The position numbers were made by a program, and so were the translations under genes. DNA of 64,000 nucleotides from NCBI GenBank assembly GCA_009746045.1, contig RPFO01000972.1, forward strand, positions 175,001 through 239,000. Direction: 5' to 3'. The notes below the pieces were generated by a model. It did not search any database. It worked only from the letters and a program-made list of their open reading frames with translations, and was not told the DNA's origin. Positions 3,501-63,156 of the stretch are shown piece by piece (position 1 is the stretch's first letter; each line of letters begins with the position of its first letter). This DNA is from Mesostigma viride (taxonomy: Eukaryota; Streptophyta; Mesostigmatophyceae; Mesostigmatales; Mesostigmataceae).

Positions 3501-5257
3501 CAAGGGACCGCCTCACTGGCGGCACCTCAGGTGCGAGTGCCAGCATAAGTTCAAGTGGCAGCACGGGTTCTACTGGCGTCGGTCACGGCGCGCGGCCCAT
3601 GTCGGCCCAGGTGCCCTTGAGCGCGCCCATGGTGGCGCCGCACCACTCGGGGGCCGCCACATGTCGCGGCCTGGGACCATCATCGTCGCCGCCCGGGTCA
3701 AACGCTGCTGGCATCCCAGAGACGGGTGTGGTAGGTTGTTGCCGAAACTACCGTGGTCGGTTGCAACAACTAATGTGGTAGGTTGTTGGCAAGAGATCGA
3801 GGTGAAAATGCTGCCAAAAACCAATGTGCTGTGGCTCAGATGGTAGAGCATCTGATCAAATGTGGTAGGCCTCGCCGCCGTGTGTTTCTTCACGTCCTGG
3901 TCACCTGTTGGATGTTGCAGGGAAAAACCGGGCAACACTGTGGTCGTTGCCCGTGTGTTGTGTTCATTTTCCAGTCAGTTTTTGGATTGCAACCCTACAA
4001 CCAGGGAGATGATCAGCATTAACTTGCCATCAGGGCTGCAGGCTGTAGCACCAGATCATGCATGCACTACCATACGCAAGTATGTAATTTTTCTTCTTCT
4101 GCCTTACACTTACACACCAGCCGTGGCATCTTGCACCAAATGCACTAACATCCGTGAGTGTTTTATCCCTGCTTCTTCTTCCTTACACTTGAATCCTCAC
4201 ACACACCAGCCGTGGCAACTGCGCCGACCCACCATATGGGACGTTGACCGCAGCCAAGAGAAGGAAAAAGAGAAGGACAAGGAGGTGGAAAAACTCAAGG
4301 AGAGGGACAAGGAACTCGAACGGGCCCGCCCCTCGCCCCCCTCACAACCACGTCCGCAGGGTTCCGCCACCCCTAGCGGCGCCACCCCTATTATGCCATC
4401 CTCCATCAACCCCACCCAGGCCATTCTCCACCAGATCGACGTCTCATACCGCTTTGAGCGCCCTCTCTCCACCCCTAATGCTGTGGCCTCGTCCACCGCC
4501 GACACCGCCCTGGCGGGCAGAGTGGCAGCAGCGGTGGCCAGTTCAGCCACCGGAGACGGCGGCGTGACGGGGGGAAGCAGTACCCCATGGGGCATGATCA
4601 CTGGCGATGTTGCGGCAGCTAGCATCGGTGCCGATGCCAGCCTTAGTGCCAGATCGGAGACGGGAGGGGAAGGGGCCAGGACCGGTGGGGCGACTGCGAG
4701 GAATCCCAGCAGTGGCAGCAGTAATAATAACAAAGCAATGCATCATAATTCTGGGGACGACACTCGCACCGGAAGAAACAGCATCTCCCATGCGGGCTAT
4801 GCCGGTCCGCCGACCGGTGACGGCAGCAGTAGTACCAGCGGCCCAGGAGGCACGGCCAGGGCCGGTGCGGACGCCAGCGCTGCCGCCCCAGGGTCTATTC
4901 CTCCGTCCCTGATCCATGTGCACGCGATTGGTGGACTAGCCACCCCCTTTTGGCCCCAAGTGCCCCCCCGGAAACCCCGCGCCAAGTCGGCGAGCCCTGG
5001 AAGCCTGATGGTGTCATCATCGCCGGCGGTCGTGGCGGCAGAGGCTATTGCCTCACACTCCGCAGCTAGTAATAATAGTTATTTTGCCGCATCGCTGGGC
5101 CAGGCAGCCCCCTCCTCGGCACCCAGTCAGCCCTTTTCTGCGCGGCCTGATGCCGCTGAGCTGGCGCAGTATTCGGCGAATCTGCGCCAGGGTGTGTTGC
5201 CGGATTCAGAGATCCCTGCCCGGTTCCAGATCTTCAGCCACGACCCTGTGTTCAAAG
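590..5257 (+). CDS. Exons 1-3: low-complexity N-terminal region of the AXDND1-like protein
   Basis: Exon 1 (590-755) encodes a basic, Pro-rich start (MSKPSDARD...) and ends in phase 1 at GTAAG. Exon 2 (3291-3730) is Ser/Gly/Pro-rich and ends in phase 0 at GTAGGT. Exon 3 (4210-5257) opens with PWQLRRPTIWDVDRS and a charged E/K/D helix (about residues 211-235), followed by a long Ala/Ser/Gly linker and then EIPARFQIFSHDPVFK, which begins the conserved core. Start choice: 590 is the first ATG that leads into an open frame with a good donor; the ATG at 582 stops after three codons. The tripeptide join across intron 1 (PKVG-T-KIGE) is consistent but not independently verified. Confidence 0.65.
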
Positions 5258-8200
5258 GTAAGGACGCGCTTCGCGGCAACGTTTTCACAATCCAACCCCA
5301 GGGGGGTGCCTTTCGGACCCGTAGGGTGCCTTTGCGTTTTAAAGTAGGAAATCGCCGTGTTTGAAGGCCTCTTGTGATTTTGAAGGTGATTTTTTTTCCC
5401 CACAGAGAATGATGGCGTGGTAGCGGGGAAATCCTAGGGAGACAGGCCCTAGGATCGATGAGCCTGTTACACCACCTATGAGTGGCTGCCTTGCGAACAC
5501 AGGCGCCACTCCTAGGCGGGAGGGGTAGGATAAGATGGGGGCCGGAGGGGGAGGATTGCGTGGGTCTTTGCATGTCCTCCTTCCTGGTGCTGTATAGGGT
5601 CATCTTTCTCTTGGTCTAGCTGTTTGGGCTCATTATCGCTTGGTCTAGCTGTTTGGGCTCATTATCCCTTGGTCTAGCTGTTTGGGCTCATTATCTCTTG
5701 GTCTAGCTGTTTGGGCTCATTATCTCTTGGTCTAGCTGTTTGGGCTCATTATCTCTTGGTCTAGCTGTTTGGGCTCATTATCTCTTGGTCTAGCTGTTTG
5801 GGCTCATTATCTCTTGGTCTAGCTGTTTGGGCTCATTATCTCTTGGTCTAGCTGTTTGGGCTCATTATCTCTTGGTCTAGCTGTTTGGGCTCATTATCTC
5901 TTGGTCTAGCTGTTTGGGCTCATTATCTCTTACTACTAGAGTTGAGCTGTTTTGGATCATCACCTTGGTCTAGCTGTTTAGGGTCATTATCTCTTTTGGG
6001 GTTGAGCTGTTATGGGTTATGTTCTTGGTCTAGCTGTTTAGGGTCGTTATCTCTACTGGGTTTGAGCTGTTTAAGGTCATTCGCTTGATATAGCTGTTTA
6101 GGGTTTAGCTGTTTGGGGTCTAGCTATTTAGGTTCATTATCTCTTGGTCTAACGCGGCAGGCACGGGGGAGGACAGCGCGTCGTAGCCTTGTGTGTCCTG
6201 TGCGTGCCAACCAACCTAGTCGGCAACCGTGTGTGTCCTGTGCGTGCCAACCAACCTAGTCGGCAACCGTGTGTGTCCTGTGCGTGCCAACCAACCTAGT
6301 CGGCAACCGTGTGTGTCCTGTGCGTGCCAACCAACCTAGTGATTTTTGTATCATGGCAACACAAGGAAGGAAAACTTATAAATTATAACATGACTCCGTT
6401 GGGAGATCATGTAGCAATCTGGAGGACAGTTCAGAGTATTCACAAGGAATTATACACTTTTGTGTTCGATGCGTCTGGATGGTGTCGAACAGGCGCGGCA
6501 GGCAAGGGGGAGGACAGCGCGGAACTGTTGCGGCTCGCGGACCCGAGTGTGGCGCAACGCGACCCGACGCAGGGCGCCGCCGACGAATGGCGTGCACTGC
6601 AGTTCCCCTCCAAGAGGTATCGCCGCTTGTGTCCTGAGAAGCGATGGAGGGATCGTTATCTTTTTAGATGCGCCTCCATTTCCCTCAATGAAGTGGGCGC
6701 TGGTTTTGTCCCTGAGAAGCATTTGGGGTAGTGATTTTTTTATGCGCTTCATTTCTCCTATAAAAGGTTGACACCGCGTTTGGCCTTGTAACAGATTGAG
6801 GGGTGAATTTTCATGCACGCCACACTCCACATCGCAGCACTCCGCACTCAACACACTGCAAACCAGTGGGGGGAAAGATGGGCAGTGTTCTGTTCATGCA
6901 CTCCACGCCTCAGTTCCCTTTTATGGGGTGGGAACCCCAGCGCTCATCGAGAAGTGGGTGTTGGTGACATCTTCATGCACGCTCACTCACGCCGGTTCCG
7001 GGAGCGGTGCATGCCCATCGCTGCCAGTTCCGCGCCCAAGGGGGCAGTGTAAAGTGCAATAAGCATACGATAGGAAACCCCTTGCCTGTCTTGTCGCTTG
7101 TAGCTTCTGGGTCACTTGTGGCTGGACCACTCTTGGCTAAGCAGCGGCTGGAAGACGTATTGGAATCGAACAGTGACGGACACCCCTTCCTGAAGAAACT
7201 CACTTGATTCATAAAGACCCCTTTGTTCTATCAAGGAGACAAACCCTTTGTTCTATGCTCCCCAGAGGGTCCCCCGGCGATGTGCGGCTAGTTGCCAAGA
7301 AAGCAAATAAGAAAGCAAATAAGAAAGCAAATTAGAAAGCAAATAAGAGAGCGAATAAGAAAGCAAATAAGAAAGCAAATAAGAAAGCACATTGGAGCGT
7401 CCCGTGATTCATGCTGATCTGTCGACTTATCCAGTTACAGGTCACTTCCTCCGAGATCCTTGCTTGTGCGTCCAGTCCCTGCTAGCTTGCTTTTTCTGCT
7501 AGCTTGCTTTTTCCTGATAGCTTCCTTTTCCGGATAGCTTGCTTTTTCCTGATAACTTCCTTTTCCTGATAGCTTACTTACTTTACTTGATTGATTTTTG
7601 TCAATAACCCACTCTCCCTGCCAGGCCATTGGTGCCGATGGAGGTAGTGCACTTCATTAAAGCTAGCGCTGTTACCATTCACTACTGACCCACCCACGGA
7701 GCTAACTCATGTTTCTACCCATCTACCGATTACTGTCTTCTCAACTTGCTTAGGGACGTGCGTCCCCACCCTTGCTCCCTGCCCTTGCTCCACCGCCCTT
7801 GCTCCCTGCCCTTGCTCCACCGCCCTTGCCTGCTTACTCGCAAGCTCGGTTGCTTGCTGATACCTACCACCGCTCCAGGCCGTCGGGCCACCCGGTGGCA
7901 TGTGGTATACCTCACAAATGCTAGCTTTGTAGTCCGCTTCATTTGCCAAGATGCCCCCTTTACAAACAATTTCTGCGCCCACTTTCCTGCTTACATGCCA
8001 GACCCTCGGGCTGGCCGGAGGTGGTCTACCCCATCAAGTTCCCCATCAAGTTAGACTAGCTTCCTTGTCAGCACACCTGCTTGTGTGCCCACGTATGTTC
8101 CCACCAATAGCTATAAGCTCATTCGCCTATTTAGTTTAGTACTCACCGATATTCCTTACCTGTGTAAGCGCCTTACCCTGGCGCCCTCTGGAGGTGTTCT

Positions 8201-11200
8201 ACCTCGCAAACGCTAGTTCTGCTGCCAACCCACTTCCCGCTAGCTTTCTTGTCAACTTACGGACGCCCTTGCTATCGCGCGCTTGCCATCCCGCCCTTGC
8301 TCCCCCGCCCTTGCTTGCATGCTTTCTTCCTCACTATTCCTTCCCCCCCGCACCCCACCCACCAGCCCGTCGGGCCGACTAGAGGTAGTATGCCTCGCGC
8401 GCGTGCTGGACCTGATGTGTGCAGAGATCATCGAGAAGATGCCGGACAAGGAGGCCCCGCAACAGGCCATGGGCGGGCGGGGGGCACCAGAGGAGTTGGC
8501 CGCGGTGGACCTGGACGCGTCATCGTACGCACTGTGGGACGTGAGTACGAGTCTCTTGTAGGAAAACACTGTTATTTACTATCACAGGACCTGGACGCGC
8601 CATCGTACGCGCTGTGGGACGTGAGCCTTCCTTGGGTCTTTAAGCGTCATGAAAGGACCTCGACATACTGCAGTATGCTACTATCATACCTTGACGCGCC
8701 GTCGTGTGCCATCTGGCATGTGAGTGGTTGCAATAGACCTATGACGTATCATAGCCTGATGATCGATTTCGCCTGTCTACCGAAACCCGCTTCTTACTAC
8801 TATTTGATCTTTGTTAGGTCTACTCGGTGATCTGGAAGGAGCTGGTAACCCAAGCGGGGGCGCACTGCATATTCCTCCATCTCCATTCCATTTACTAAAC
8901 GCCCACAATCCGATTCCATGATTCGACTAACAGATCCCCCCACAAACAAACATGATTCCACTAGCAGGACCCCACACAAACAAACATGATTCCACTAACA
9001 GACTCACACACAAACAAACATCATTCTACTAACAGACGCGCACACTAGCAAACACATTAATCTCCTACCCCCACACTAACAAACACAATTGTACTACCCC
9101 CCACATTAACATTCGCGCCAGGTCTATTTGGCCATCTGGAAGGAACTGGAGCACCTAGTGCCGTGGTTGCTCACCCCAGTCCGCCCAACATGTGTCTTAC
9201 CAAATATTGGCCGCCAGGTCTACTCGGTCGTCTGGAAAGAGCTCGTCCGGCAAGTGTGGGTGCACTGCGTTGAGCGGGGAGTGCTCCTTGAGCGGCTCCG
9301 CCGCGGTGTGGCCGACATCCTGTCCTTCCTCTCTTCTTATGCGGTTGCGGCGCGGTTGGCGCTGGGCGACCTTCTCCGCCAGCTGGCGGAGAAGAAAGAC
9401 GCGCTCATCGGGGTCACGAGGGACGTCTCGGAGAAGGGCGTGCATATCCAGTCGCTGGAGTGCCAGGTCCAGGTGCTGGAGGTGAGGGCTGGGGAAGAGT
9501 TTTTACATGGCCTATAAAGGGGATCTCACGGCTGCCAGCATATATCCTGTTTGGCGTGTCCATCCAGCCGTAGAGTGCCAAGTCCAGGTGCTGGAGGTGA
9601 GGGATTTTCTCTGTTCTTGAAATGGATACGCCATCCAGTAGCATAGATCCTGTCGGGTGTGCGCATGTAGTCGGTTGAGTCTCAGGTCGAGGTGGTGGAT
9701 GTGGGTGGGGGAGACGGGCGCTTGCACCCCCCGCTTGAGGCTGATGACGGATCCGGCCGATCCAGGGCTGCGATCTTAAACCTGAAATCAAATCCAGGGC
9801 TGCGATCTTAAAGTAGAAAACGAATCCAGGGCTGACCATCTTAAACATCAAGTAGGCACATCCACCCACCCTCGCGTACGACTGACCGCTACTTAGCAGC
9901 GCTTGGTGCCTGCTTTGAGATCTTTTTCCCCCAAACCAGCCCTGCGATCCCCGATTTGCAAAATCCAGGGTCTCGAGATCTTAAACCTGAGAATCATAAA
10001 CCTCGAACTGGGGGTGTATCTGGCTTCTGAAGGTGGTTTTACAGCCCGGGCTTGCAGGTCGGTTTTGATGCACATCGCAGGTCATTTGAGTGCCAAGTCC
10101 AGGAGCTGGAGGTGAAGCCTGGGGATGGCTTCTCATTAGCAGGGCTGGTGTTTCTTGGCCGTCATTAGCGTCACGCATTACTGGGTGTGCGCGTCCAGTC
10201 ATTATAGCGCCTGGTCCGGGTGCTGGAGGGGAGCCAGGGGGGGAAGGGGGGGAGGGAGGGGTAGGCAGCCTGATTGTGTTACAGTAGGCAGCCTGATGGT
10301 GTTACGGTAGGCAGCCTGATGGTGTTACAGTAGGCAGCCTGATGGTGTTTCGGTAGGCAGCCTGATGGTGTTACAGTAGGCAGCCTGATGGTGTTACGGT
10401 AGGCAGCCTGATGGTGTTACGGTGGGCAGCCTGATTTTGTTTTACTGTTTTAACATGATTGTGTTGCGGTAGGCAGCCTGATTGTGTTTTACTGTTTTGA
10501 CCTGATTGTGTTACGGTAGGCAGCCTGATTATGTTACGATGAGCAGCCTGATTACCTTTTTGTAGTGTTCAACCAAGGTGTCTGTCGGTTGGGTAATGCT
10601 GAGTGTCTCGAAGTCTCTCCTCCACGCAGCATCCCTACCATAGAACGCTGCTTTGAGTTCGTTTCGGTGCAGAGAAACTCATGGACGGCCGGTCCACATC
10701 ATGTATTAGTACGACCGGGGCTCATGCGGTGGTGCAGTGAGAGAGGCGTGGAGGGGCTTCCCCCTCCTGGTCGTGTAGCAGAGATCTACTGCACCGCCTT
10801 CCATAGTTCGTTGGTACCTGTGCTGGGTTTTTGCCCCTATTTAAAAGATACCTTAACACATATGATCTTATTTCCTTTCTCTATCTAAGGCCCCCCTCCT
10901 CGTTGTGTATAGGGGTTGGAGGTTCCTTTACTTTGCATTGGCACCCATTTGACGCACTCGCGTGCTTATTAATTATTAATAATTAATCTACGGCCTTGCT
11001 TGTATCCACCCTCAATGACCATCGTACCCTATGTCCTGCTCCCGCGCTATGCACAGGCCATGCTCGAAAAGGAGCGGCCGCGCACGACCCAACAGGCTAT
11101 TGTGCCAATGCCGTTACCACATTTTATGGGATGCACAGTTATTTGCCCCATTTGTCCCATTCGACATGTAATTGTTCTGTACATGCAGGCCATGCTGGGA

Positions 11201-14200
11201 ATGGAGCCCTGCGCACAGCCAAGCCAGATTACTGACAGCGCTTTATTATACCAAGCGGGTTGTGAGTGCGTTTGCCATCTCTCAAAGCTAATCAGACTTT
11301 TTTTTTTTCACTCTTGCGCCCCCATCATCTCCGTGTGCAGGCCATGCTTGAGAAGGAGCGCCTGCGCACGGCCAAGCAGGCGGAACAGCTGGCCGAGCAC
11401 GCGGGCCGCGCGACCACGCAGCAGTCGCGCATCGACCAATTGGAGATGACATCCGATGCGCTGAGGGACGCGCTTGCTGATGTGCTGGCGCAGGCGAGGG
11501 GGAAGGGTTCCACGCTGGCGGTGCCGGAGGCTGTACGCACGATTCTTGCGAACGCGGGTGCGGCCAACACGTACGAGGAGGACAGGGAGGTGGGTGGGGG
11601 CTGAGTGTGTGTGTGGGGGGGGGGGTGTTACTCCATCGATAAAGAGTAGGTTGAGATAGTATTGATGGGGGGCCGCATGCACTATCGTGGGTAACACATA
11701 CGAGGAGGACCGAGAGGTGCGCGGGTGGGACAGGGGGCGGTTGCTGGCGGTGGCTACTGTGTTATGAACGAGGTACGTATGTGATATTGATAGGAGGCTG
11801 TGCGCAGTTTTTGTTGCCAGCAAATGTAAGGAGGATTGAGAGGTGGATGGGGAGGGCGCGACCGTGAGGAGGAGGCAGGGGTAGGTGTGGGTGGGGAGGA
11901 GGTGGGGAGTGGGGTCGCTGTGTGTTAATGTTTTGCTGTGTGTTAAGGTGTTTGTCCGCAACACTCGGCTCTGTTTGTCTTGACTCCAATCTATCTCCAA
12001 ATATATTTCTGATGGATGCCTGTTGCTTAACTGTCCATCACAGGCCATGAAGCGGCTGCGCCCTTATGCTTCGCTGTGTGTCTGGAACTCACTCATTCCC
12101 ATGCCTGATGGCTTCACTTTCTGTGATAATGTCACAGGCCGTCGAGCGCCTGCGCTCATTCCGCAACGCTCAGCTGGTCGAAGCGCTGGAGAGCGCGCGC
12201 TCCTCCGCCGCCGCGTGGGAGGCGCTCGCCACCACGGCGATGAAGCAGCTCGCGTTGCAGGCGGTGGAGCGGCCGGTGGTGATGGGGGCGGGTGTCGCGG
12301 GGGTTGGGCTCGGTGAGGCGGAGGTGACAGCTGGCAGGAGCGGGTCGTCCGCGCTGGGATTGAAACGGACGGGACGTGGTGAGGACTTGGACCCAACAGG
12401 CCTGTTTTGCTTGCTTTCTTCATCGTCTGTGATGCGGACTTGAACTAAAAGGTTTACTACAGCGGCTTATCAAGGCAACCCCCTATTTAGGCTGTTTAGG
12501 CTTATTACTGTATTTTACTTTCTTTTATTATCCTCTATTCTCAACCCCCTATCCTGTAATTTCCGTTCTGTAATCTGCTCTCTACATTCTTCAAAGTGCC
12601 TTTACAAAATAGAGCGTCCCAAGTATGAGTGCTTGCGCGTTCTGTTCTCTCTAACGTTAAGGCCCTCTTTCTGACTTTTGACAAGGGCAACTCAAACAAC
12701 TGTTCTCACTGACGATGGATGCACGGCTGTTCAATAGTAGTAATAGTCTATATTTAACGCACAGCAGGCCCATGAGATAGTCACACAATCATAACATAAA
12801 TATGTTCCCCGAATCATAACATCAATATGGCTGGAGGAATGGCCCCAGCCATCCAACTGGGTCGACACCTCGACCGGTAAATATAGATTTTTTTTGCGGC
12901 CTCAGGATAGCTGCTATGACGTTTCCGGACACTTTTCTGTATGCCCATCCTCGCGACAGCTGAGCATTCTATAATCCTCTTCTGCCCTCTGCGGCGGCAC
13001 ACTGATTCTACTATTTTTCTGAAGTATCCAAGTAGCTGCTTTGAACATGTCCGCCACACGGTCACCATGATTCCAGTTTCCACGTCCTTGCTTATGCTTG
13101 CTTTCGCAAATCCTCCTGCCCGCATGTCCCTCACATCCCCAGTTAGCATCGAACCACACACGTTTGTACTGTAGACGTACGTGCGGTACACATATGCTTG
13201 CAAGCAGTTAGGAGTGTTTCTGAGAACGCTCCTGGCCAACTCCCGCCTTGATGGTTTCTTAATTTATGACGAGATCTGATTCCATCAAGTGACTCCTGCC
13301 TTCGCAAGCCTCCCTACCACCCAGCTCCCTCCTCCCTCCTCCCTCCTTTCTCCTACTGATCCCCCCAGTTGGCATCGAAACATGTACGTTTGCGTGCGTG
13401 TGCGTGTGTGTATGCGTGTGTGGCGACAAGTCTTCCCGAGAACGGTCCTGACAAGTTTCTGTCTTGAAGCGTTCCTGATGGGTCACGAGATTGAGTTCAA
13501 ATTACTGACTCCTGCCTACAAGCAACGTCCCCGACACACCTCCAGGTGTCACCAGGTGGCATCGAGCGAGCATATATTTCTGTGTGCGTGTGGGCATGTG
13601 GCTAGGCCCTAGGAATGTTCCTGACCAGCCCCTGCCTGCAAGCAACGCCCCTGACCAACTCGCTTGCGTCGCCAGGTGGCATCGAACGGTGCGAGGACGG
13701 GAGCACCATCGACATGGGAGGTGCCGAGGAGGTGGACTCGCGCAATGCGGAGGAAGACACGGCGGCGAGTGCCGCCCGTGCAGGTAGGGGCAGTATGGTA
13801 GATGGGGTTCCTATTGTAGGTATCATAAGGCAGGATCATTGGAGGGGGTTATATATAAATATATAAGGGTTATATAGGAATGGAGAGCCGCATTGGATCA
13901 TTGGAGAGGGACGATGTCACATACTCAAAAGTTTGTACTCTCCCAGTGGAGGCACGCGAGTGAGTGAAGGAAGGAAGGAGTGTCACCCGTCACCCGTCAC
14001 CTGTCACCCTCGCCATCCCCCGGCATAACGCTCCCCTCCCTCCCCCACCCTGTCCCCCAACACGCGCCATTGTGCCCCGCCAGATGGCGCCCCCTCAGGG
14101 CTGCCGCAGCCCCGCCCCAGCTTCCACCTCCCCAACCTCCGCATCAAGATCGACGAGGACCGGACCAGCGCGACCACCAGTGGGTCGCCCAGCCCGTCTT

Positions 14201-17200
14201 CGGCGACCCTTCGGGGGCCAATTTCGGGCGACAGCTTGCGCGGCGGCGGCGGCAGCGGCGGGCTAACCGATGGCCTTCGCCACGGACTGCTCGTTCGTGT
14301 CCCTCGCAGCACAGGGTCGCCGCGCGGCAGAAAGGAAATGGGGGGGACCGTGTCGCCGTCGCTGCTGTCGCCGCGCAGCCCGGGCGCTAGCCCGAGGTGA
14401 GGGTCTTGGCTTCATGCTGTTTTTTTTTTTTGCTTTTTCTGATGAATGCGGTAGCCCGAGGCAAGGGTCTGCTTCACAAGCTTTTCACTCCTCTTTGCGG
14501 CGCTGTCTTTAGATTCATGTTGATGCCATTTGCTAGCGAGTGCGGTGGCTCGAGCTATGGGTCACATAAGCTTGATTGGGCTCTTGCTATTCTTTTTTAT
14601 TTTCGCCGAAAGCATATCCGATACCTCAGGGTGTCAGGTATCGAGCCTAAAGGTAGAGGGGCCCAGGAGTTTCGGTATCGATCCCAGATGTAGGTGGGTT
14701 ACCGATAGTGCTGGTATTGAGGGTAGAGGTAGGTGCCCAGGAGTGTTGGTATCGATCCCAGATGTAGGTGGGTTACGGTAAGTGCTGGTATTGAGGGTAG
14801 AGGTAGGTGCCCAGGAGTGTTGGTATCGATCCCAGATGTAGGTGGGTTACGGTAAGTGCTGGTATTGAGGGTAGAGGTAGGTGCCCAGGAGTGTCGGTAT
14901 CGATCCCAGATGTAGGTGGGTCACCGTTAGTGCTGCTATTGAGGGTAGAGGTAGGTGCCCAGGAGTTTGGGAATAGGTCCAAGGGACAGGCTTTGAGCCT
15001 GTTTGGTGTATTGATCGCTATTAAGTGTATTGAGCCTACTAGTAAAAGCCGGGGAGCATTTGCAGGTTCAGTCGGAAGGTAGGGACCCGGGGGGTTGGGG
15101 GATCAGGACCTGCTGGACTACAAATCTAATACTACTAGTTAGATGTAGTGGAAGTATGAGACATAGCCATGCGTTGTTAATTCTAATACTACTAGTTAGA
15201 TGCAGTGGTAGTATGAGACATAACCATACGTTGTTAAATCTAATACTACTAGTTAGATGTAGTGGTAGTATGAGACATCACCATGTGTTGCCCTCTCTCA
15301 TAATCCCAGGTGGACTGCGGAAGACCGCGATGACAAGCCAAGTCCTTCCCTGACATGCTTCCCCCCACTCTTTCCTATCCTTTTGCCCTGTGATAGGGCT
15401 GTGATAGGGCTTATGCCCTGTTTGCCCTGTGATAGCGCTTTTTGCCCTATAGTAGGCCCTATAATAGGCCCGCTAATAGGGCTTATTTAATAATGATGAT
15501 TGCCCTTTATTACCATCAATTCCCAATGGCGCCGTGGAGGGCCGCGCTGTCTATGTCATCAGCGCGCATTGCAGGACATACCCAATGTCTATAACGGACT
15601 GCCATCCTCGACTACTTTCATCCCAGGTGCACTGAGGAGGACCGCGAGCTGGTCATGTGCTCCTCTCGGATGCTCCCCGAAACTCTCTCCTCTTCTCTCA
15701 CATCCAATCATGCGTCATCATGGCCTCTCTCCTCGTCCCAGGTGCACTGTCAAATATTTCGATTGACCAACAAGGTCCATTGCAAATGGAGAGGAGGAAT
15801 ATCTTTCACCCTTATTCAACCCTTATTCAACCCTTATTCAACCCTTATTCAACCCTTATTCAACCCTTATTCAACCCTTATTCAACGTTTGTATTGAGCA
15901 TCATGCGTGGTCCGCCAAAAAGGCTAGGCAAGCCAACAAGGCGTAAAACATGGCCAGCAATGCCAGGCCAACAAGGCCTAAAACTAACCAACAAGGTTAA
16001 TACAGACCAACCAGGTCTAGGCTCCGCGAGGGCCTCCCCTCGCTTTCCCAAGATCTAGGTCATAACTCCGCCATACTTAGCCTCAGGCTTGGAGGCGACC
16101 AACAAGGTGCATCGAATGTGCTAGGCACTTTGCCTTTGACAAGGCAAAAACACTTGTGGCAACCGTCGATGTGAAAATCTACGGTGTAGGACTAATTTAG
16201 TTGACAACAAGCCAAAATCACACATATCATGCTTGCGACGGCGGTACCACTAGAAAGGTGGCGCGGCGCACACCTGAGTGAGTACAAGTCATCTGGACAT
16301 CCAGTCCTAAGCGTGAGTGGCGTTGGCATGTAGGCACTAGGGCTATATGCCTCCAAGGCGGCGCCCGATGCTTACATCGCGCGAAGCGCGGATCCCCACG
16401 CAGGTCACAGTGGCACTGTACGGACGTACATAGGCAGTATGACGAATCAGCCACTGCACCGATCAATAGCTACATCGGCCAGGGAAAAAAGTATTTTCAC
16501 ACCGATTTTTTTTAAAAAAAAACAGCTCCTAGAACCAATACATACGCCTAATTCACTCATAATTGCTCATGTGTACGAAGTATGGCACACCCGCTACCAG
16601 CAGCATGCTTTTGTATTAAAGCAAGGCAACAGAGGGTAGCAATTGTTCACGATGCCAACCCACAATCCGGCCTGTACAAAATCCTCAAAATATGGCAAGT
16701 AGTGCTAGAAATTCTGACATGCGCCGTGGAGGACCGCGAGCTAGCTGTACTGTTCTCTAACATGCTGTGCTATTCTCTAACATGCTAACCCCACAAAGCC
16801 TCACATCCTCTTGCTTCTCCCGGTAATATTTTACTCATTTCAGGTCCACAGCACGCAGGCTGTACCATTCTCTAACATGCTTGCCCTGCACTTTCATATT
16901 GTTTGGTTGTCCCCCCTATACCTTGTGTTCCAGGTTCACCATGGAAGACCGCGAGCTGGCGGCCATCCCTGGGGAGACCTTCCTGGCGCGCCTCATGCGC
17001 ATCAAGCAGCTGCAGGAGTCACAGATGCGGCGGCGGCGCAAGGGCGCGCCCACCACGGCCACGGGGGGCGGAGAGCAGTGGAGCTGGGGGCTGATCGGGG
17101 GGGGTGTCGACCGCGCACCGCCCGTAACCGGCATCTCTGTGAGTGGGCAAGCATTCGTAGGAATAATGGTAAGTGACAAAATGGTCGATGCCTGATGGTA

Positions 17201-20200
17201 AGATGGTAAATGATACATGATAAAATTCTAAATGATACGTGGTAGAATTAGATGGTATCATGATTTTATAAGATCGGGATGAATGGGAATGCTCTGCTCC
17301 CGTAGTGCGCGGTTGAGTAAATTGACCAGCGTCCAAGTGAGTGGGCAGGCCTGCTAGGAGCAATTAAGGGCGACTTAATCATAACAAATTTGGGAATGCA
17401 CTCGATGCAGGCATGGTCTGTTGATCGAGGGTATACTTGAGCGGTGTCACCGGCAGATGAGTGAGTGGGCTTGGCATCGTCGTAGAGATTATAGCATGTG
17501 CCCTCCTCTTCCCACCCCTTCCCACCCCTTCCCACCCCTTCCCACCCCTTCCCACCCCTTCCCACCCCTTCCCACCCCTTCCCACCCCTTCCCACCCCTT
17601 CCCACCCCTTCCCACCCCTTCCCACCCCTTCCCACCCCTTCCCACCCCTTCCCACCCCTTCCCACCCCTTCCCACCCTTCCCACCCCTTCCCACCCCTTC
17701 CCACCCCTTCCCACCCCTTCCCACCCCTTCCCACCCCTTCCCACCCCTTCCCACCCCTTCCCACCCCTTCCCACCCCTTCCCACCCCTTCCCACCCCTTC
17801 CCACCCCTTCCCACCCCTTCCCACCCCTTCCCACCCCTTCCCACCCCTTCCCACCCCTTCCCACCCCTTCCCACCCCTTCCCACCCCTTCCCACCCCTTC
17901 CCACCCCTTCCCACCCCTTCCCACCCCTTCCCACCCCTTCCCACCCCTTCCCACCCCTTCCCACCCCTTCCCACCCCTTCCCACCCCTTCCCACCCCTTC
18001 CCACCCCTTCCCACCCCTTCCCACCCCTTCCCACCCTTCCCACCCCTTCCCACCCCTTCCCACCCCTTCCCACCCCTTCCCACCCCTTCCCACCCTTCCC
18101 ACCCCTTCCCACCCCTTCCCACCCCTTCCCACCCCTTCCCACCCCTTCCCACCCCTTCCCACCCCTTCCCACCCCTTCCCACCCCTTCCCACCCCTTCCC
18201 ACCCCTTCCCACCCCTTCCCACCCCTTCCCACCCCTTCCCACCCTTCCCACCCCTTCCCACCCCTTCCCACCCCTTCCCACCCCTTCCCACCCCTTCCCA
18301 CCCCCACCCTAAACGATTACTCCCTCCTCGTCCCCCAACCCCCAAACCCTCCACCCTCCTGGCCCCCCCACCCCTCCCCCCCCAGGTCCCCCTCACCGTC
18401 GCCGTCGACGTCAACGGCACGTGCGAGATCACGGTGTCCCGGCTTGGTCCCTGGCAGCTCCCCGCCGGCTTCCGCGTGCACCTGCTCCTCCTCGGGCGGG
18501 CTGACTTGGCCCTCGTGCGCGGGCCGGACTCGTTTGACCTGCGCGACCCGGCGTCCACGAAACAGATCGTGGCAGGTCTGTCCGGTCTTGATGAGGCCAC
18601 GTTTGTAATCCTGGTCGCTGTGGGGGAGGGTCATCGAGACGCCGCCTCGGTCCAGCGCGTGCAGACGCTCCTGCACTCGTGCGGGGCCAAGTTCTGGCAG
18701 CAGCTGGGCGCGGCGGGGCGGCGGGCAGCGCTCCAAGGGGAGCCAGAGGCTACCGGTAATGCTGGCGTCGATGCTGATGCGGACACGGGTGCAGACGCTG
18801 GTGGGGCCGTGTCTGCGGGGGTGGCCAAGGATGGGAAAGATGGACATGTTCTACCGGGTGGCAGCATTAACGCCCCCAGTGGCAGCAGCGGAGGAGGTAC
18901 TGTAGGTATGTCAGGGATGGAAGCCTTGAGCTCCCCGGGCGGTGATGCCGCCGCGGCGACCGATGGCGCCCCCAGGGACGCGCCAGGGACCGCCATTCAG
19001 GGCAACGGGCAAGGCACCGCCGGTGCGCCAGGTGGCGGTGAGCGAGGGGGGCAACCGTCGCAGGGTCTTTTGGGCGGTGCCACTGGCGCGGAAGGGACTG
19101 CTGGGGGACCAGGGGCACACCCGGGTCGAGGCCTCAGCAGTCAGGCGGACGTCAGTAGCAAGGAACCTGGAGGAAGTGCCCCGTCAGGCATGCCGGCCTC
19201 TGGAGGGGAGGATATGGGTCAGGTGGGGGCCGGCGAGGGTCAGACAACTGACAAGGTTCAACCAGATGACAAGGGTCTAACGCAAGGGCATGACCAGGAG
19301 GGCCAACCACAAGGCCTTAATCGTCAGGAATCTTTATCGGGGGGCATCATCCCTGTCCATGGAGACAAGTCGCTTACCAACATGCTCCCGCCCGCCCACT
19401 TCTCGCCTTCTTCTGGCGACGGTCACGTCTCGCCCTCGTCTGCCAGCGGGGTGCCGTCCCCTGCTGGCGCGGCGGCTGCGGTGGCGCCAGCTGGCGTGCC
19501 GGGCGGGGGCGAGGGTGCCTCTGCCGCAACGACAAGTGGAGCTGGGGAGGGGGAAGTCACAAGGAGTGATGGAGAGGGGAGGAAACCGAGCAGTGCTGGG
19601 GGGGGTAATGGGGCGGAGGGGTCAAACCCAGGGGGTGCTAATGCTAGCGCGCCCAGTGATTCTGTCCGCGCAGTCACTGCCGTATCGCCAGAGACAGGTA
19701 CCAGTGGGTGTCATCCAGGCACTGTGGGCGCCCACAAGGAAGGGGAAGGCGCCCTGAACGTTAAACAGGGAGGGGTGCCCTTGGCTGCCGATGCGGCTAT
19801 CAAGGCAGAGGGCATGGGAGCAAATGATGCTGGGCCTGCGGCCACGGAAAAGGTGGAGGGGGCAAAGGACGCAGGGTCGGACGGGGAGCAAGACCGAGCC
19901 AGGGAGCAGGCTGGTGGGCAAACTGGCACCAGCCAGCCAGAGGCGGGCAAGGGGGCGGAGGGCGGTAAACAGGAATCCGGGGGGGCAGTAGAGCCGCAGA
20001 AAGCGCCTGCAGAGCCGAGTGTTGGGAAACCACAAGATGGCGGGAAGGAATGGGATAGGAGCAAAGCTGGGCAACCACAACCACAAGGGGTGGATGGCAG
20101 CAAGGCGGGGGTGGTGGATGGCGTGCCCCAGACGCTGGCGTATTCCTTCATCGGCTTCACGGGCGCCCCCTTTGCACCCGAGAGCAGCGTGGTCGGGTCC

Positions 20201-23200
20201 GGCGTGCAGGGCTGGTTCGTGTGGGACCCGTCGACTCGGATGTACGACGTGCTCACGCAGCCCCATGCATCTGCGCTCGCAGGTACGTATCTTCATCACA
20301 CTAGTATCTTATGGCTCACATGTCTTTACAGGTATTAAAGATAGGAGCGGCTGCGCTCGCAGAGATGTGGCAGCGCTTGTCCGACGACACCCCTCGTGGT
20401 TGCGGTTTCAGGGTTTAGGGTTCAGGGTTTTTAGGGTTTAGGTTTTACGATTTTATGGTTTATGGTTTAGGGACGACTATGCTTTTCGCGCTTGTCCGAT
20501 GACTATGCTGTTCATGGGGGTTTCGTTGGGTTTGTATAGCAGTCGCGTGCTTTAAAATTGATCTACAGAACTTTCATCAACTGACTTAAACGTTGCAAAG
20601 CACAGCCAGCTGTCTCTTTCCATTCCCGTCTAGCCCCTAGGACATGCTCATGTATGTTCATGTGTATTAAAAATAGGTGCGGCCACGCTCGCAGGTGGGG
20701 TGGGTAGGTGTTGGGTTTTGCGTAGCGGCTGCTTCGTTTCATGTTTGTGGGGTGTGCCTAGCCTGGTCGGCTGCTTCTTTTCATGTTTGTGGGGTGTGCA
20801 TAGCCTGGTCGGCTGCTTCTTTTCATGTTTGTGGGGTGTGCCTAGCATTGTCGGCTGCTTCCCTTTGTTCCCTATGAATAGTAGAACTGGGAGAAATTTG
20901 CTTGAACTAGATTTGTTAGATGAACTCAGGGATCCCTTTGTTCCTGTAAAAATAGCAAAGTAGAGATTTACTTGAGCTAGATTAACTGTTTTCCCAGCTT
21001 ATTAGATTGGCTGGTTCCCTTAGTTCCCTTAGAAGTACTAGAACTAATGGAAATCTACTCGAACTAATACTAGATTCATTAGATTAACTGCTTTCCTTTG
21101 TTCCCTTCTAACTCCTATGATGTGCTCATCCAGCCTCAGCACGCCACGCTCACAGGTGGGTCGTTGCTCTGGTAGGGTGCCCATGCAGGTTTTGGCCAGA
21201 GGCACGCGCAGGTGGAGTGCTGTGCTGCACGTGTGTAGCATTGCTACTATGCCACTAGTGCTGGTTTGAGACCAGACCGGGACATGACAGGCCCGTGACT
21301 GACGCAGGATCCTGATTCCATCAGCGATGCTATTTCAACATGTTTTTATCATAGTTAACCCTGCTAAGGGTTGCTGCACGTTCTGTCTGTCGCACTTGTC
21401 TTTTCCTGTAAGATACTAGAGCACTCCCATGCTAATTTTCTGCCCTCTACCCTCCCCCCCCTCCCCCCTCCCTCTTTCTCCCTCTCCCCACACCTATGCA
21501 CCCGGGCACCACCCTCCCCGTCTTTCGGACCATGCCCATGCGGTCAAACGCCCCTGGAACACCCGCCAGGTGTCCGTGCGCTTGTGGAGGGCGCGGAGCT
21601 GGTCGCCCCCGGCATGAACAGCGCCCAGCTGGCGCTCTGCCTACAGTGCCAGCTAGCGCAGTGCATGCGTCCGTTGGAGCGCGTCTTCCAGCGTTACTGC
21701 CTCATGCTGGACTCGACAGGGCAAGGTGGGCCTTCCAATCCATGAGAGCAAATAGAGAACATGATTTTTTAGTCTCCATACGACCTGCAGGGTCTTCCAG
21801 GGCGACTGCCTCATGCTGGCAAGAAAAGTTTTTGTTGCTCATGGTCTTGTTGGTCATGTTGGGGCTCCATGTCAAGGCTCATGGGTAAATTATCGTGGGG
21901 CTCCATGTTTCTTGTTTCTTCTCTTAGCTCCTCTCATGCCCACTTTATCTTATTCCTCTTATTGTGTAGTAGTATAATATTTCTGCAGCGCTCATTTGGT
22001 TTGGAACAGGGCGGAGTTCAGTCTTCTTCACTTCCACCTCTCGGCTCTCCCCCGCCCTTCACCGCCCCTTACTTCCCATCGCCCCATTGCATTCACACGC
22101 CATCCACTCAACTCACTTTCCCTTCAACCCCCTTTTCTCTTATTCAACCCCAAGGGACCCACCCTACCCCACCCCCTCCGCATCCCCATTATATTGCCCC
22201 CCCCCCCCTATGATCCACCCCTGGTCATCCCTGGACCTATGATCCATCCCCCCTGGTCATCAACCCGTTGCGATATACCACGCACGCGCCCCTCTTCTGC
22301 CCGCGCCCCCACCGCCACCACCATACAAACACCCCTTCACCGCCTGCAGTCACAAGCCACCCCTTCCACTGCGACCTGCGCCAGTTTGAGATGCTCTGCA
22401 AGGGCAGCCGCCTCAAGCTCAAATCCTCCGAGATGGCCCAGCTCTACAGCGACCCACGCCCAACGCCCAATGCCACCACGGGGGGTGACGGCAGCAGTAA
22501 CAACTCAAGCCCTGCCTCCTTTGAGCTCAGCTCCTCTCCCCGCAAGGGGGGTGTTGGGGCCAAGAACTCGTCCAATTTGTCCAACTTGTCGAATCTGTCC
22601 GCCAGCTCCGGCGAGGGTGCCTTGATGCCAGGGTACCAGGCGCCCCCTGAGATGGACTTCATCGGCTTCCTGGAGTCGTTGGCGCGGCTCGCGGTCTTCC
22701 GGTGGGCGCTTGTGGACGGATCATGCTCAGGATCTGGTCACTATCCGCGTATTGTGTACTGTGCTACAATACGCCCCCGTATTGTGTACTGTGCATGTAC
22801 TACAATGCTGCATGCGCTACTAGTACCTACCTTTTAGCCTTAACTACGATACCGCATGCTCTACTAGTACCTACCGTGAGCCTTAACTACGATGCTCCAT
22901 GCTCTACTAGTACCTACCTTTTAGCCTTAACTACGATACCGCATGCTCTACTAGTACCGACCGTGAACCTTAACTACAACGCTCCATGTTACACTAGCAC
23001 CGACCGTGAACCACTGCTACCGATGCCAGACCGACAGTCTACCGGTGGGTGCTTGTTTAGTATGGGTGCTTTGTAACCAAGCGTGCTTGTTAGCATGCAT
23101 CCCCTTGTTGTCTCTTGCACGCCTTTTCGCCTACTGTTGCACCATACTAGGGTATCGCACCGGTGCATTCGCATCCTATACCAGTACTATGTGCCATAAT

Positions 23201-26200
23201 TAGTCCACAGGCTCGCGATATACCGGCGCATGCTTATGGGCTCTCTGTGAGCTTCACCAAGAGTGCTTGGTAAATATATTGATTGAGAGTGCATGATAAA
23301 TAAATTAGTTAAGAGTGCTTGGTAGATAAACTAATTGAGAGTGCTTGGTAAATAAAAACCACACCATCTGTCTGTCAACCTTTCCCCGTGCCACGTTACC
23401 CTGTCCGCCAGCAAGCTCGGCCTCATGCAAAGTTTCTACCATACTCCTTTTAAAATTTGCCTAACTGTTGAACTATCACTTCCTTGATAGCTATTTTTCT
23501 TTTGCCTTTGATGGCTTTCCCTTGGCTATCTCTTTACCATTCCTTGCCGTCTCTCCTTTTCCCGTGCTATCTCCCCGTGCAGCTTCGCCATGTCCGCAGG
23601 CAAGCTCGGCACGGTCTCTGTCCTCCAACAAGGGAGCAGCGCCACCGCCGGTGCCGCCTCCACAGCCGCCACGTCAGCAGCCAACGAGACCAGCTTGACG
23701 GCCTCGCTGACCAGCGGGGGGGGTTCTGGTGCCGGCAGCAGTGGCGGAGGCGCAGCCACCAGCACAGCCACCACGATCCCGGAACACCTGGCGGAGGTGC
23801 TGCACAAGCACGTGCTGCGATATGCCGCTGCCATGAGGCACCCGCGCAACTTCTTCCGGGAGTTGGGCGATGACAACGTCCAGGTATTAAGTAACACAGT
23901 TGCCCGCTTTAACTACGCTGCAATGTTCGCTACTACTATCTATGCTTTGGTTTGTGTTTCTTCCGGGAGTTGGGCGATGCCAACGTGAAGGTATTAAGTA
24001 ACACAGTTGCCCGCTTTAACTACGCTGCAATGTTCGCTACTACTATCTACGCTTTGGTTTATGTTTCTTCCGGGAGTTGGGCGATGACAACGTCCAGGTA
24101 TTAAGTAACACAGTTGCCCGCTTTAACTACGCTGCAATGTTCGCTACTACTATCTATGCTTTGGTTTATGTTTCTTCCGGGAGTTGGGCGATGCCAACGT
24201 GAAGGTACCCCATCTCCCTCTCCTAGCCTTACACCCCACGTCCAACTATCGATGTATTACTTGATTGCCTCACTCCTTGATTTTCCAGTTGAATCTGATA
24301 AAATGCTTTGTTATATACTAGGTGACATGAGTTGGGATAACCAAGTTAAAGTATTATGTACACTGGTATCTCAATACTACTTGTCGACGCTGGTACTTAA
24401 CTACTATCAACTGACAAAAGCAATTGTCATCTTTGCCTTTGACCCTTAGCGCCGGCACTTACCAGCTTGCTCCCATTTTCCTTGCCTTTGACTCGATATC
24501 CCATCACCATCGCCACCCTTTTGCCTCACACCTGTACCACCCCGTTTGCGCGCCTTCGTTCCCACCTATCTTCCCTACCCCTTCTAGTAAATACCCGTTT
24601 GCCCCCCCCCCCCCCCCTTGTGGTCCTCACCTTTTTGCCCCCCCCACCCCCCTCTTTTGGCCCTCACCTCTTTTGGACCCCGCCCCTTTTGGCCCTTACA
24701 TATTTTAGCCCCTCACCCATTTTGGCCCTCACCTCTCCCCCCCCCCCCCCTAGTGGCCCTCACCTCTTTTGGCCTCATCACCCCCTTTGGCCTTCCACCC
24801 CTTTTTGGACCCACCCGCCCACCTTTACCCCCCCCCCGGCCAGGCCATGCTGCGCATCCCCTACGCCTCGTTCCTGCGCAAGTTCTTCATGTACGCGCGT
24901 ACGCTCGGCGCAAACCCCGGGCGTGCAGACAGTGATGACGAGGGCAGTCGGTCAGGCACCCCGCGTGCTGACGCCCGCAACAAGCCCCACCCCGGGAAGT
25001 ACAACAGCTCCAACAACGACAACAACAATGACTCCCCAAAGGAGCCGAATCGCCCCGAGCTCTCGATATCTCGTCGGGGGCAGCGCGCGAGAAGCCTCGA
25101 CGGGACTGCGTCGAAAGACAAGGAGTTGGACGCGGCGGTGGAGGCAGCGATGGCGAGCAAGAAGGCCCGGTCGAGCGGGCGGGGCGTCACCTACTCAGCG
25201 TGGCTGCGGCTGTGTGACGTGTGCGAGATCACGTCAATGGACACGTCGCGCCACGCGCATGACGGGTGGGCGGGTCACGTGATGGCGCCCGACACGGCGG
25301 CGCAGGTGTGTGGATGGGATGTTATTTTATGGATATATATAAAGCAGTATGGGGATGGACATTAGGTGTGTAATGGTGTGTACAATGACAGTCACGTTGC
25401 GAGCTGGTGGACGGGGGTCGATGAAGTTATGCTGCTGTACGCGAGTGTTTGTGTAGTGAAGTGAGTACGTGTACATGGCTGGAATCGAACATGTGACTTG
25501 GAATGGAGGGTCGCGGTGGTCTTGATGATGCAGCCGAGTCGCCCGTGACAAGAGATTTTGTTTGCCATTATTATAGAAGTCTGTTAAACAAAGGGGGGGG
25601 GGGGGGGGGGGGGGCGCCCGCTATAGCTTGATTCCACCATTAACTCGTCGTCTGTCCCAACTCAGTCCTCACAGGAGGACTGAGTTGACAACTTTCAACC
25701 GCGTGTAGCGACTAGGTGGGGGGTCCATCCCAAATGTTTTGATGTGGATCAGGGGTGTACTAGATGTCATTTTGTTGGCAAAAATACTGCATATGTGAAA
25801 ACTTGACCCGAACACCTGAAAATTACACGGACGTTGGGCACCCCTCGCGAATTTGCATTTTTCGGGATAAGAACGAGTGGGAAAAATTCAATCAAATCCT
25901 GGTGCATGAAGAAAAAATATAGGCATGTAAACAATATAGTTCTTGAAACGTGGCAAAAAACTGGGCTCGATTTGGCCACTGCAACTGCCTGAAACAATTA
26001 AAAAACTCTCAGTCCTCAGGAGAGGAATGGGGCTTTTGCTAACTTTGCTAGCATGTAAGTGCGGTCATACTACACACCACCGTGGCCACCAACCATCCCA
26101 ATCAACTCATTTCCCTTCAAGCATTACAGGACAACACACTTGCATCATCATACTTCAGGTATATCATACCTTATCATGTAGTGAGAGCCTATGCATGCAT

Positions 26201-31517: not shown

Positions 31518-31656
<139 letters not shown>

Positions 31657-34107: not shown

Positions 34108-34603
34108 ATGGCAGTTCCTGCCATGCTGGCCATGTCTCAGGCAACCGTTGCAAAGCTTAAAATCAAGCTAGAGGTCTAGAAGACAGTGCAAATGGTGTCC
34201 AGTTATGCTTGTATATCTTGCCATGTGCTGTTCATCTGCTGCCGCGGCAGCAAACCCCTGTCAAAATATACCGTAACAATGTAGATATTGGGGCTATGTG
34301 AGTGAAGCTAAGCGCTTGGAAGGTTACACCTATCATTATAATGCATGATCCTTGTGCGTGTTTGTAATAGCGGCTTTGGATTCCTCATGGTTACGTGCAA
34401 TACCTGGGGCATGGCATGGCAGTTTTGTTTCACAGAGCCTGCATATGTTGCCCAGAGGACAAATTCCGGCCACGAGGTAGCCATGGCTGTCGGAGCTCAT
34501 AACTTTCACGTTTGAGCACCGAATTTAGCCGTGAATATCACAATCGCTTCGTCTTTCTAAGACGCACATGCTGATATAATTTTCCGACGCTATTACGCAA
34601 TAT

Positions 34604-52040: not shown

Positions 52041-52410
52041 CAGTCAGCACGGTTTAAGGGTTAATTAATTAATTAATTAATTATAATTAATTAATTAGTT
52101 TTAATTAATTAATTAATTGACGACGGAAAGTCTCGTGACGACCTTGCCGCGCGCGGTCCCGGCGTCGGGGGCATGCATGCATTGCCAGTTTTGCCACATG
52201 AGCTCATGAGGACAAAACGCCCGGGCTGCACGGCTTTATAGTGCCAGCTAGTCTGTCTGATGTGTCTGCCTGATCTGTGCGGGCCAGGTGCCCCGCTAGG
52301 CCCAGGCGCCTTTGCCTAAGCATGTCGGAAACATATGGTATAATTCATTCATTAATTAGTACTAATTAATTAATACTAATTAATTAATTAATAAATGTCT
52401 GTAATTAATT
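52041..52410. repeat. (TTAA)n-rich segment
   Basis: Repeated ATTAATTA runs at 52057-52120 and 52345-52412 flank about 200 bp of mixed sequence without a gene. These resemble the tails of the LINE families found elsewhere in the window. Confidence 0.6.
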
Positions 52411-52413
52411 AAT

Positions 52414-62954: not shown

Positions 62955-63156
62955 TAGTTACATGCGGGTAAGGGGGGCGAATGGAGAGATAAGGGAATAA
63001 TAATAATGGCGAGGTGGTGCATCATCAATTCACCATACTAGCATCTATTGGATTGCAAACGGAAGAGTCAGCCGTGAGCCATGGCTGGTAACACCAGCAC
63101 GATGAAAAGGTACTACTACGACAACCGTGGATGGTGATAGCCTTGGGTAGTCCTTG

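Follow-up and report, generated by a model that had tools for sequence, protein, structure and literature searches.

Introns of at least three Mesostigma viride genes contain copies of their own exon-intron borders, candidate fossils of intron growth by tandem duplication

Why would an intron contain pieces of the very exons that border it? This question is raised by a 64,000-nucleotide stretch of Mesostigma viride contig RPFO01000972.1 (hereafter, the window), in which the introns of an AXDND1-like gene were originally predicted to hold degenerate copies of their own splice junctions. The gene lies on the + strand at 3212-27831 and is modelled with 17 coding exons (3212-3730, 4210-5257, 6493-6616, 8366-8540, 9218-9481, 11341-11589, 12138-12378, 13676-13783, 14084-14396, 16934-17138, 18386-20282, 21570-21725, 22350-22701, 23583-23883, 24844-25305, 26972-27276 and 27708-27831), with a frame open over all joins; the Ax_dynein_light domain (PF10211) falls in exon 9218-9481, and the annotated Mesostigma viride protein Mesvir1 Mv00932 agrees with the model at 16 of 16 junctions. 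A mitochondrial carrier gene (SLC25A26-like; Mito_carr, PF00153) occupies 57159-62411 of the same strand (exons 57159-57547, 58236-58389, 60152-61354 and 62262-62411) and continues past the modelled part; its model and Mesvir1 Mv00935 are 100% identical throughout the 632 aa, with 3 of 3 junctions as modelled, so that annotated proteins confirm all 19 modelled splice junctions of the two genes. Tandem repeats are abundant (127 TRF rows over the whole window) and the introns are rich in minisatellites; no RNA families or tRNAs were found in the window.

We compared each exon edge (50 exon nt plus 10 intron nt) with its own intron and with the other 18 introns of the two genes. Own introns (41,698 nt) gave 42 matches, distributed over 23 of the 38 edges, and the other introns (740,304 nt) gave nine, from which 0.51 would be expected in own introns; the predicted excess over unrelated introns is thus borne out. 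If exon 2 is taken to be 3212-3730, the numbering that we infer, all nine acceptors (exons 3, 4, 5, 6, 7, 8, 9, 11 and 15) and all nine donors (2, 5, 6, 7, 11, 12, 13, 14 and 15) named in the prediction have a match, the copy of donor 13 stopping 15 nt short of its junction. The wording "nearly every exon" was somewhat strong: 19 of the 32 edges of the AXDND1-like gene match, and the 13 that do not comprise four donors and four acceptors between exons 4210 and 23583 and the five edges from exon 24844 onward. In UPF1, on a different contig, 4 of 18 edges have copies, against 0.22 expected. Copies of their own exon-intron borders are therefore a confirmed feature of introns in at least three Mesostigma viride genes, these three (AXDND1-like, mitochondrial carrier and UPF1) being those with verified models that show copies.

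The controls place the copies at junctions and in one orientation. Windows of 40 nt taken 80 nt and 100 nt inside the exon matched the adjacent intron in 0 of 38 cases each at score 26, and a wider target in 1 of 38 and 2 of 38; among non-array exon-interior windows (n = 310), 5.2% had some match within 800 nt. No more than 1 of 38 reverse-complement windows reached score 26. Self-BLAST of 3600-25600 returned 38 direct and no inverted matches, and all 12 matches that touch an exon span a splice junction; an origin by inverted copying, as in templated insertions, was ruled out by the lack of inverted matches in the AXDND1-like gene.

All copies lie on the + strand, and their identities are given here as matching over compared positions. 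The donor of exon 3212-3730 recurs at 3774-3787 (14/14, with just 4 exon nt), and the acceptor of exon 4210, with about 70 nt of intron, at 4062-4131, which pairs with 4140-4220. An acceptor-side copy of exon 6493 (6153-6180, 27/28) has lost its AG. Exon 8366-8540 has acceptor copies at 7621-7648 (23/27) and 7868-7889 (19/21) and donor copies at 8587-8625 (37/39) and, second and older, 8688-8725 (28/38). Around exon 9218-9481, acceptor copies lie at 8816-8867 (43/50) and 9116-9147 (26/32), and four donor copies follow at 9553-9603 (45/51), 9655-9703 (37/49), 10069-10121 (43/51) and 10183-10233 (39/51). Exon 11341-11589 has acceptor copies at 11054-11097 (37/44) and 11184-11224 (38/40 aligned columns, gapped), donor copies at 11693-11725 (28/33) and 11829-11852 (20/24), and a G-rich donor-like match at 11869-11896 (24/24 aligned columns, gapped) that may reflect low complexity. 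Acceptor copies of exon 12138 (12038-12061, 20/24) and of exon 13676 (13365-13379, 14/15; and 13511-13568, which includes 45 nt of intron and pairs with 13631-13688) are followed by a donor copy of exon 14084-14396 (14448-14470, 20/23), absent from the earlier list, in which GT has become GC.

Farther downstream, exon 16934-17138 has acceptor copies at 15306-15330 (20/25) and 15623-15652 (25/30), an acceptor-side copy without AG at 16724-16745 (19/22) and a donor copy at 17446-17470 (20/25). Exon 18386-20282 has a donor-side copy without GT at 20351-20362 (12/12), inside a repeat that is also present at 20664-20694, and a donor copy at 21116-21157 (32/41). An edge copy on the donor side of exon 21570-21725 (21792-21819, 25/28) is the one ending 15 nt before the junction; exon 22350-22701 has a donor copy at 23037-23054 (16/18), and exon 23583 an acceptor-side copy at 23384-23421 (30/38). 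In the carrier gene, weak edge copies short of the junction accompany exons 57159-57547 (57617-57631, 14/15) and 58236-58389 (59014-59035, 20/22), and exon 60152 has three acceptor copies (59790-59813, 59926-59953 and 60024-60052), which form a decayed tandem array over 59790-60052, with a 158-column self-match. Acceptor-side copies of exon 62262 lie within 61739-62018 (61739-61772, 61774-61788 and 61978-62018), the first two being adjoining pieces that may be one copy.

The geometry of the copies is regular. None contains more than 51 exon nt, 28 of 32 reach the junction, and 35 of 42 are closer to their own junction than to the intron's other end. The median distance between a junction and its first copy is 116-118 nt, and neighbouring junction copies are spaced by 80-152 nt in 22 of 41 cases, by less in 3 and by more in 16. 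Mean identity is 0.868, that is, about 13% divergence on average. After masking of arrays, 41 direct repeats remain in the 19 introns, and 36 of these involve a junction or a copy.

The unit of duplication is clearest in a young array at 23851-24207 (+ strand, period 107, 3.3 copies), which is supported by TRF, BLAST, alignment and the protein junction. Exon 23583-23883 contributes 33 nt and the donor to each 107-bp unit, and 74 nt of intron follow; the units are 99% identical, splicing in the annotated protein is at the first donor, and the last unit stops just beyond the donor, where unrelated intron begins. Some series include 45-135 nt of duplicated intron, and in some the homology covers the whole unit. 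Serial tandem duplication, as originally proposed, is upheld where the intron remainders of adjacent units can be matched (8 of 37 comparable pairs exceed the 99% null level), but in the other 29 pairs the remainders do not rise above that level; the acceptor copy 11184-11224 matches its exon at 38 of 40 columns, yet its adjacent intron remainder has no detectable homology. Of 35 copies, 25 lose the intron-side match within 12 nt of the junction, against 41-55% in simulated plain tandem duplication. The idea of a duplication that always spared the intron side was dropped, since simulation largely predicts such short matches. In 24 copy pairs, chosen by exon similarity and including one that is nearly a single site, similarity on the exon side is 0.69 at a distance of 30-50 nt from the junction (null 0.56) and 0.55 at 50-70 nt (null 0.42), and it continues past the exon-derived part into the intron; the intron side is near null (0.64, 0.56, 0.63 and 0.44 vs 0.54, 0.57, 0.55 and 0.43).

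We consider it reasonably probable that the copies are fossils of short introns lengthened by repeated tandem duplication of junction-straddling segments of about 100 bp. Serial duplication of such segments would lengthen a short intron; the outermost copy, contiguous with the exon body, would keep the splice site, and the inner copies would decay. Duplications that span a junction would be tolerated because splicing at the outermost site restores the old mRNA, and selection would purge those inside exons. The junction bias could arise because nearly every duplication in a short intron touches a junction, and copies with more than about 50 exon nt may be missing because a longer exon piece, next to a splice site, would act as a competitor or pass for an exon. 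The exon half would stay recognisable longer because its partner is coding-constrained. Growth would be mostly old, with a quiet time of about 0.2 substitutions per site in the fitted model, and with some recent activity represented by the 107-bp array. Units as alike as those at 23851-24207 (99% identical) fit poorly with such a quiet period.

In simulations, rapid growth with a 51-nt exon cap and a quiet time of 0.2 fitted in 27 of 120 replicates over 12 settings, and in 9 of 10 at the best setting, a fit in which rate and quiet time were tuned and the cap value was read off the same data. At that setting, frequencies were 0.51 at the junction (observed 0.46), 0.17 just inside (0.11) and 0.24 in the nearby intron (0.25); 20.7 edges had copies (18), the first distance was 127 (118), and 0.06 of edges exceeded 51 nt (0). 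When duplication rates were set low, the same capped model fitted in 0 of 120 replicates, whether quiet time was included or not. The reading of the copies as growth fossils is supported by their direct orientation, the homologous remainders in 8 of 37 pairs, the spacing of the first copy, the capped-model fit, the recurrence in UPF1, the 36 of 41 repeats tied to junctions or copies, and the exon-side similarity of the 24 pairs reaching into the intron. The 29 remainders without detectable homology, the near-null intron side of the pairs (a lopsidedness also seen in simulated tandem duplication), the tuning of the fit, the failure of all 120 low-rate replicates and of steady uniform duplication in all 480 simulations, the poor match of quiet period and young array, and the verification of just three genes count against it.

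An alternative that we regard as unlikely, although ahead of the others, is a duplication process aimed at the junction and tied to transcription or splicing, which would recurrently copy 10-50 exon nt and the splice site into the intron, for instance through break repair at the splice site or staggered-break fill-in around a spacer. Such aim would explain why most copies reach the junction and none carries more than 51 exon nt despite the first spacing of about 118 nt; uncapped tandem models matching that spacing predict 50-67% of edges beyond 51 nt, and 0 of 22 were observed. The early end of the intron-side matches also speaks for it, as does the end of the last unit in the young array, which looks like an exon edge and donor duplicated around a spacer. 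However, plain tandem simulation also produces short intron-side matches, some series contain 45-135 nt of duplicated intron, and capped growth can fit without any such process. "Junction-anchored", in the original prediction, holds as a description, given the excess over other introns and over the uniform model, and need not be the mechanism, since capped growth of short introns can reproduce it. That splice junctions are duplication hotspots from which introns in this lineage grow outward, so that a dated series of border copies builds up inside them, is in our estimation marginally less likely again.

Compared with the growth-fossil reading, retention of the copies for a function, as decoy or poison sites or as alternative acceptors or donors regulating through nonsense-mediated decay, appears improbable. 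GT or AG is present in 29 of 42 copies (CAG in three of three acceptor copies of exon 60152), use of 41 of the 42 would cause a frameshift or stop, as poison sites would, and the exon-derived side is the better preserved in copy pairs. Against this, the 29 retained sites (ungapped placement) compare with 31.7 expected from mean identity alone, the lopsided pairs were picked by exon similarity and function-free simulation of tandem duplication yields the same pattern, at each of the 19 junctions it is the outermost site that the annotated proteins use, and some copies without a site remain recognisable. Service as alternative coding sites is unlikely from the sequence, with the frame kept without a stop in 1 of 42 (9116-9147, +96 nt). 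The suggestion that the copies act as decoy or alternative sites thus finds no sequence support, and they mostly look like harmless leftovers.

To no greater degree do we credit ordinary background, in which duplications are uniform across a repeat-rich genome and are noticed at junctions since exons decay slowly. The minisatellite-filled introns are in keeping with it, as are the 17.6% of non-array intron windows that have a direct repeat nearby, and bursts followed by quiet time without an exon cap attained both the junction criterion and the intron criterion in 7 of 288 replicates. However, uniform neutral duplication at matched intron rates, in steady state or simple growth, fitted in 0 of 480 simulations: those set close to the intron rate (0.15-0.22, against 0.25 observed) missed both the junction frequency and the junction-minus-intron difference. 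The uncapped burst settings gave an excess of copies deep in exons (0.08-0.39 vs 0.04 observed), and masking of arrays left the repeats concentrated on junctions and copies. An assembly or collapse artefact is very improbable: assemblers are prone to errors at tandem repeats, but most copies have diverged, the exons read cleanly and agree with annotated proteins, UPF1 repeats the pattern on a separate contig, and a published Mesostigma viride assembly, which may not be the window's own, is described in the available part of its report as 113x PacBio, Illumina-polished (PMC6947507).

Intron sizes and transposon content are the usual evidence from which intron lengthening is deduced. Here the introns themselves seem to keep a record of the individual steps: every copy can be assigned a source, a direction and an age, and intron growth may accordingly be readable stepwise. 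If the pattern is genome-wide, it would allow the growth of introns to be timed, as by a clock, in this early-branching streptophyte. Introns of this species are unusually long, with a mean of 1141.9 bp in the available text of PMC6947507. The stop at 51 nt also serves as a natural experiment in the amount of duplicated exon that a splicing machinery tolerates, and we suggest a link to the bound of 51 nt set for mammalian micro-exons, as given in the accessible portion of PMC4317164.

Among the literature matches listed, a scope outside which most subscription papers lie, neither exon-edge copies nor intron growth by such duplication is described. The nearest relative is intron gain by tandem genomic duplication, in which, as outlined in the available part of PMC3443670, an exonic segment containing AGGT is duplicated to create a new intron; in both cases, a segment bearing a splice site is duplicated and the mRNA stays intact. 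Unlike in such gain, the Mesostigma introns seem to have been lengthened, repeatedly and at both ends, with copies mostly on their own side, and no donor-edge match abuts its intron's acceptor, the hallmark of tandem-duplication gain being the upstream exon end directly before the acceptor. Intron gain with short direct repeats around the whole new intron also involves direct repeats, but in Mesostigma the exon-edge copies lie within the intron. Intronic minisatellites likewise consist of tandem intron units, and interior arrays here have units of 6-87 nt, whereas the junction copies are mostly more decayed, contain coding sequence and are often 80-152 nt apart. Duplicated cassette or mutually exclusive exons also place exon-derived sequence and a splice site in an intron; here, in contrast, a single edge is copied (at most 51 nt), and 41 of 42 copies would lose the frame as site extensions. 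Introner elements are a bulk source of intron sequence in algae. Unlike such elements, the edges of the two genes match their own introns far above others (42 in 41,698 nt against 9 in 740,304 nt).

When each of the 38 exon edges of the 19 introns in the AXDND1-like gene and a second gene of the window was aligned to its own intron and to each of the remaining 18, 42 own-intron matches were found on 23 of the edges (in 41,698 nt), whereas the other introns gave nine matches in 740,304 nt, corresponding to 0.51 expected in own introns; the excess over unrelated introns implied by the original prediction of junction echoes is present. With 60-nt exon-only edges (score of at least 26), 12/38 edges matched their own intron and 1/38 any other intron. 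Exon windows at least 80 nt inside gave no match to the adjacent intron at score 26 (0/38 at each of two offsets); with a wider target, 1/38 and 2/38 matched. Self-BLAST of the 22-kb gene yielded 38 direct and no inverted matches, and all 12 that touched an exon spanned a junction. The 18 junctions originally listed as echoed were all matched, provided that exon 2 is 3212-3730, and the unlisted donor at 14396 was matched additionally; however, 13 of the 32 AXDND1-like edges lacked a match, so that echoes at "nearly every exon" hold for the named junctions rather than for all edges. In the second gene, four of six edges were matched, two of them weakly and ending before the junction; the copies are not limited to a single gene.

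Our hand-built AXDND1-like model comprises 13 exons from 4210 to 25305 with an open frame of 1904 aa. Residues 330-860 matched a sole protein at E 0.001, Mv00932 of the eukprot set jgi/Mesvir1, which we take to stand for Mesostigma viride (99% identity, 97% coverage); this protein supplies the extra exons 3212-3730, 6493-6616, 26972-27276 and 27708-27831 and moves the start of the exon ending at 8540 to 8366. The AXDND1-like label is fair, since exon 9218-9481 contains an axonemal dynein light chain match (PF10211, E 6.8e-06). The second gene (57159-62411) encodes a mitochondrial carrier with 100% identity to Mv00935 over 632 aa; its long exon 60152-61354 contains, by eye, a low-complexity insertion of ~300 aa. 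Between the two genes lies an RBR-type ubiquitin ligase frame (55594-56313, minus strand) with IBR and weak RING matches. The annotated proteins read through all modelled junctions (16/16 in the AXDND1-like gene, 3/3 in the carrier). For a published assembly of this species (strain NIES-296), the available text of PMC6947507 gives 113x PacBio reads and a mean intron of 1141.9 bp.

A wider sample comprised 16 pieces of 10 kb from the same assembly; nine of the first eleven were tested blindly, using coding blocks from a codon model. At a score of at least 30, 4/80 edges matched, compared with 0/640 comparisons with other flanks and 0/73 interior windows; one of the four appears low-complexity, and reverse-complement matches numbered 3/80. 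At score 26, the values were 8/80 for edges versus 6/640 for other flanks. UPF1 (P0006, Mv00399), a core factor of nonsense-mediated decay, was identified in piece L006 (contig C1:9000000-9009999) together with L012 and L013; L006 was sampled blindly, and UPF1 was pursued since two L006 edges had matched in the blind test. With nine introns placed exactly from the protein, UPF1 bears five copies on 4/18 edges versus 0.22 expected, a rate below that of the window genes. In piece L011, near 4851-5048, a donor-edge match begins ~53 nt into the flank of a predicted exon end; the gene fragment is presumably PP2C-like, as judged by eye.

The copies are in direct orientation, and 35/42 sit in the half of the intron closest to their own junction (median distance 237 nt); the median distance between the junction and the first copy is 118 nt (18 edges, score 28). 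When the search used 120 nt of exon, 28/32 copies reached the junction, with exon parts of 4 to 51 nt. Some of the series form simple tandem arrays, such as 23851-24207, which has a period of 107 bp with 33 nt of exon per unit, and in other series the duplicated intron portion is 45-135 nt; homology between the intron remainders of adjacent units exceeds the 99% null level in 8/37 and does not in 29/37. Interior intron arrays have shorter units (6-87 nt). The 19 introns hold 41 direct repeats outside arrays, of which 21 span a junction, nine join two copies, six involve a copy at one end and five involve neither junction nor copy.

Local direct repeats occupy 3.3% of 1232 non-array windows in unannotated DNA (28-55 kb) versus 17.6% of 655 in introns, which suggests differing age or turnover. 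Directly before the acceptor of exon 18386 lies a (CTTCCCACCC)n array of 80 copies (17508-18304), so that a ~880-nt pyrimidine-rich stretch precedes this exon. Very long, near-perfect tetranucleotide runs also occur: TACT x34 (31519-31656), AATG x129 (52403-52917) and GACC x72 (63156-63442). A 459-aa frame at 34580-35959 has no Pfam match; a piece of contig C2 (L015) contains protein stretches that closely resemble it, and it is therefore a dispersed repeat, probably a LINE-type ORF.

We modelled rapid growth in which introns of ~80 nt would have lengthened via ~100-nt duplications, with the exon part capped at 51 nt, and then passed through a quiet period corresponding to 0.2 substitutions per site. 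The best setting gave 0.51 at the junction, 0.17 just inside, 0.24 in near intron and a first distance of 127, against observed values of 0.46, 0.11, 0.25 and 118. Over 12 settings, 27/120 replicates agreed with the observations, and at lower rates 0/120 did. Capped rapid growth is thus sufficient after tuning, not proven. The cap is set empirically and may reflect selection against longer exon pieces. Without a cap, models that reproduce the spacing predict copied exon longer than 51 nt at 50-67% of edges, compared with 0/22 observed in three genes. Because the model shows sufficiency rather than proof, a process aimed at junctions may still hide in the excess; we regard this as rather unlikely, and the narrowness of the fitting region gives it slightly more weight. 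Uniform tandem duplication with frozen exons predicts approximately the same rate at junctions as in the intron nearby. It is rejected, as none of 480 replicates with an intron rate close to the observed one (0.15-0.22 versus 0.25) attained either the junction rate or the difference that was observed.

At 19/19 window junctions and at 9/9 resolved in UPF1, the splice site used by the annotated proteins is the one adjoining the exon body. If used as alternative sites, 12/42 copies would lengthen the exon by a multiple of three and 5/42 would introduce no stop codon; only 1/42 combines both, the acceptor copy at 9121 (region 9116-9217), which could make exon 9218 longer by 96 nt without a frameshift or a stop. 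GT or AG is intact in 29/42 copies in ungapped placement, where a mean identity of 0.868 predicts 31.7. Similarity between copy pairs in four outward bins is 0.76, 0.66, 0.69 and 0.55 on the exon side (null 0.54, 0.57, 0.56 and 0.42) and lower on the intron side (0.64, 0.56, 0.63 and 0.44). We do not read this lopsidedness as upkeep by selection, because the pairs were chosen by exon similarity and simulated functionless copies show the same pattern.

Among the literature matches listed, there was no description of existing introns being repeatedly lengthened from their junctions in several genes. Tandem duplication is an established source of introns; whereas the process described in the available text of PMC3443670 makes introns, in Mesostigma existing introns appear to have been repeatedly lengthened from their junctions.
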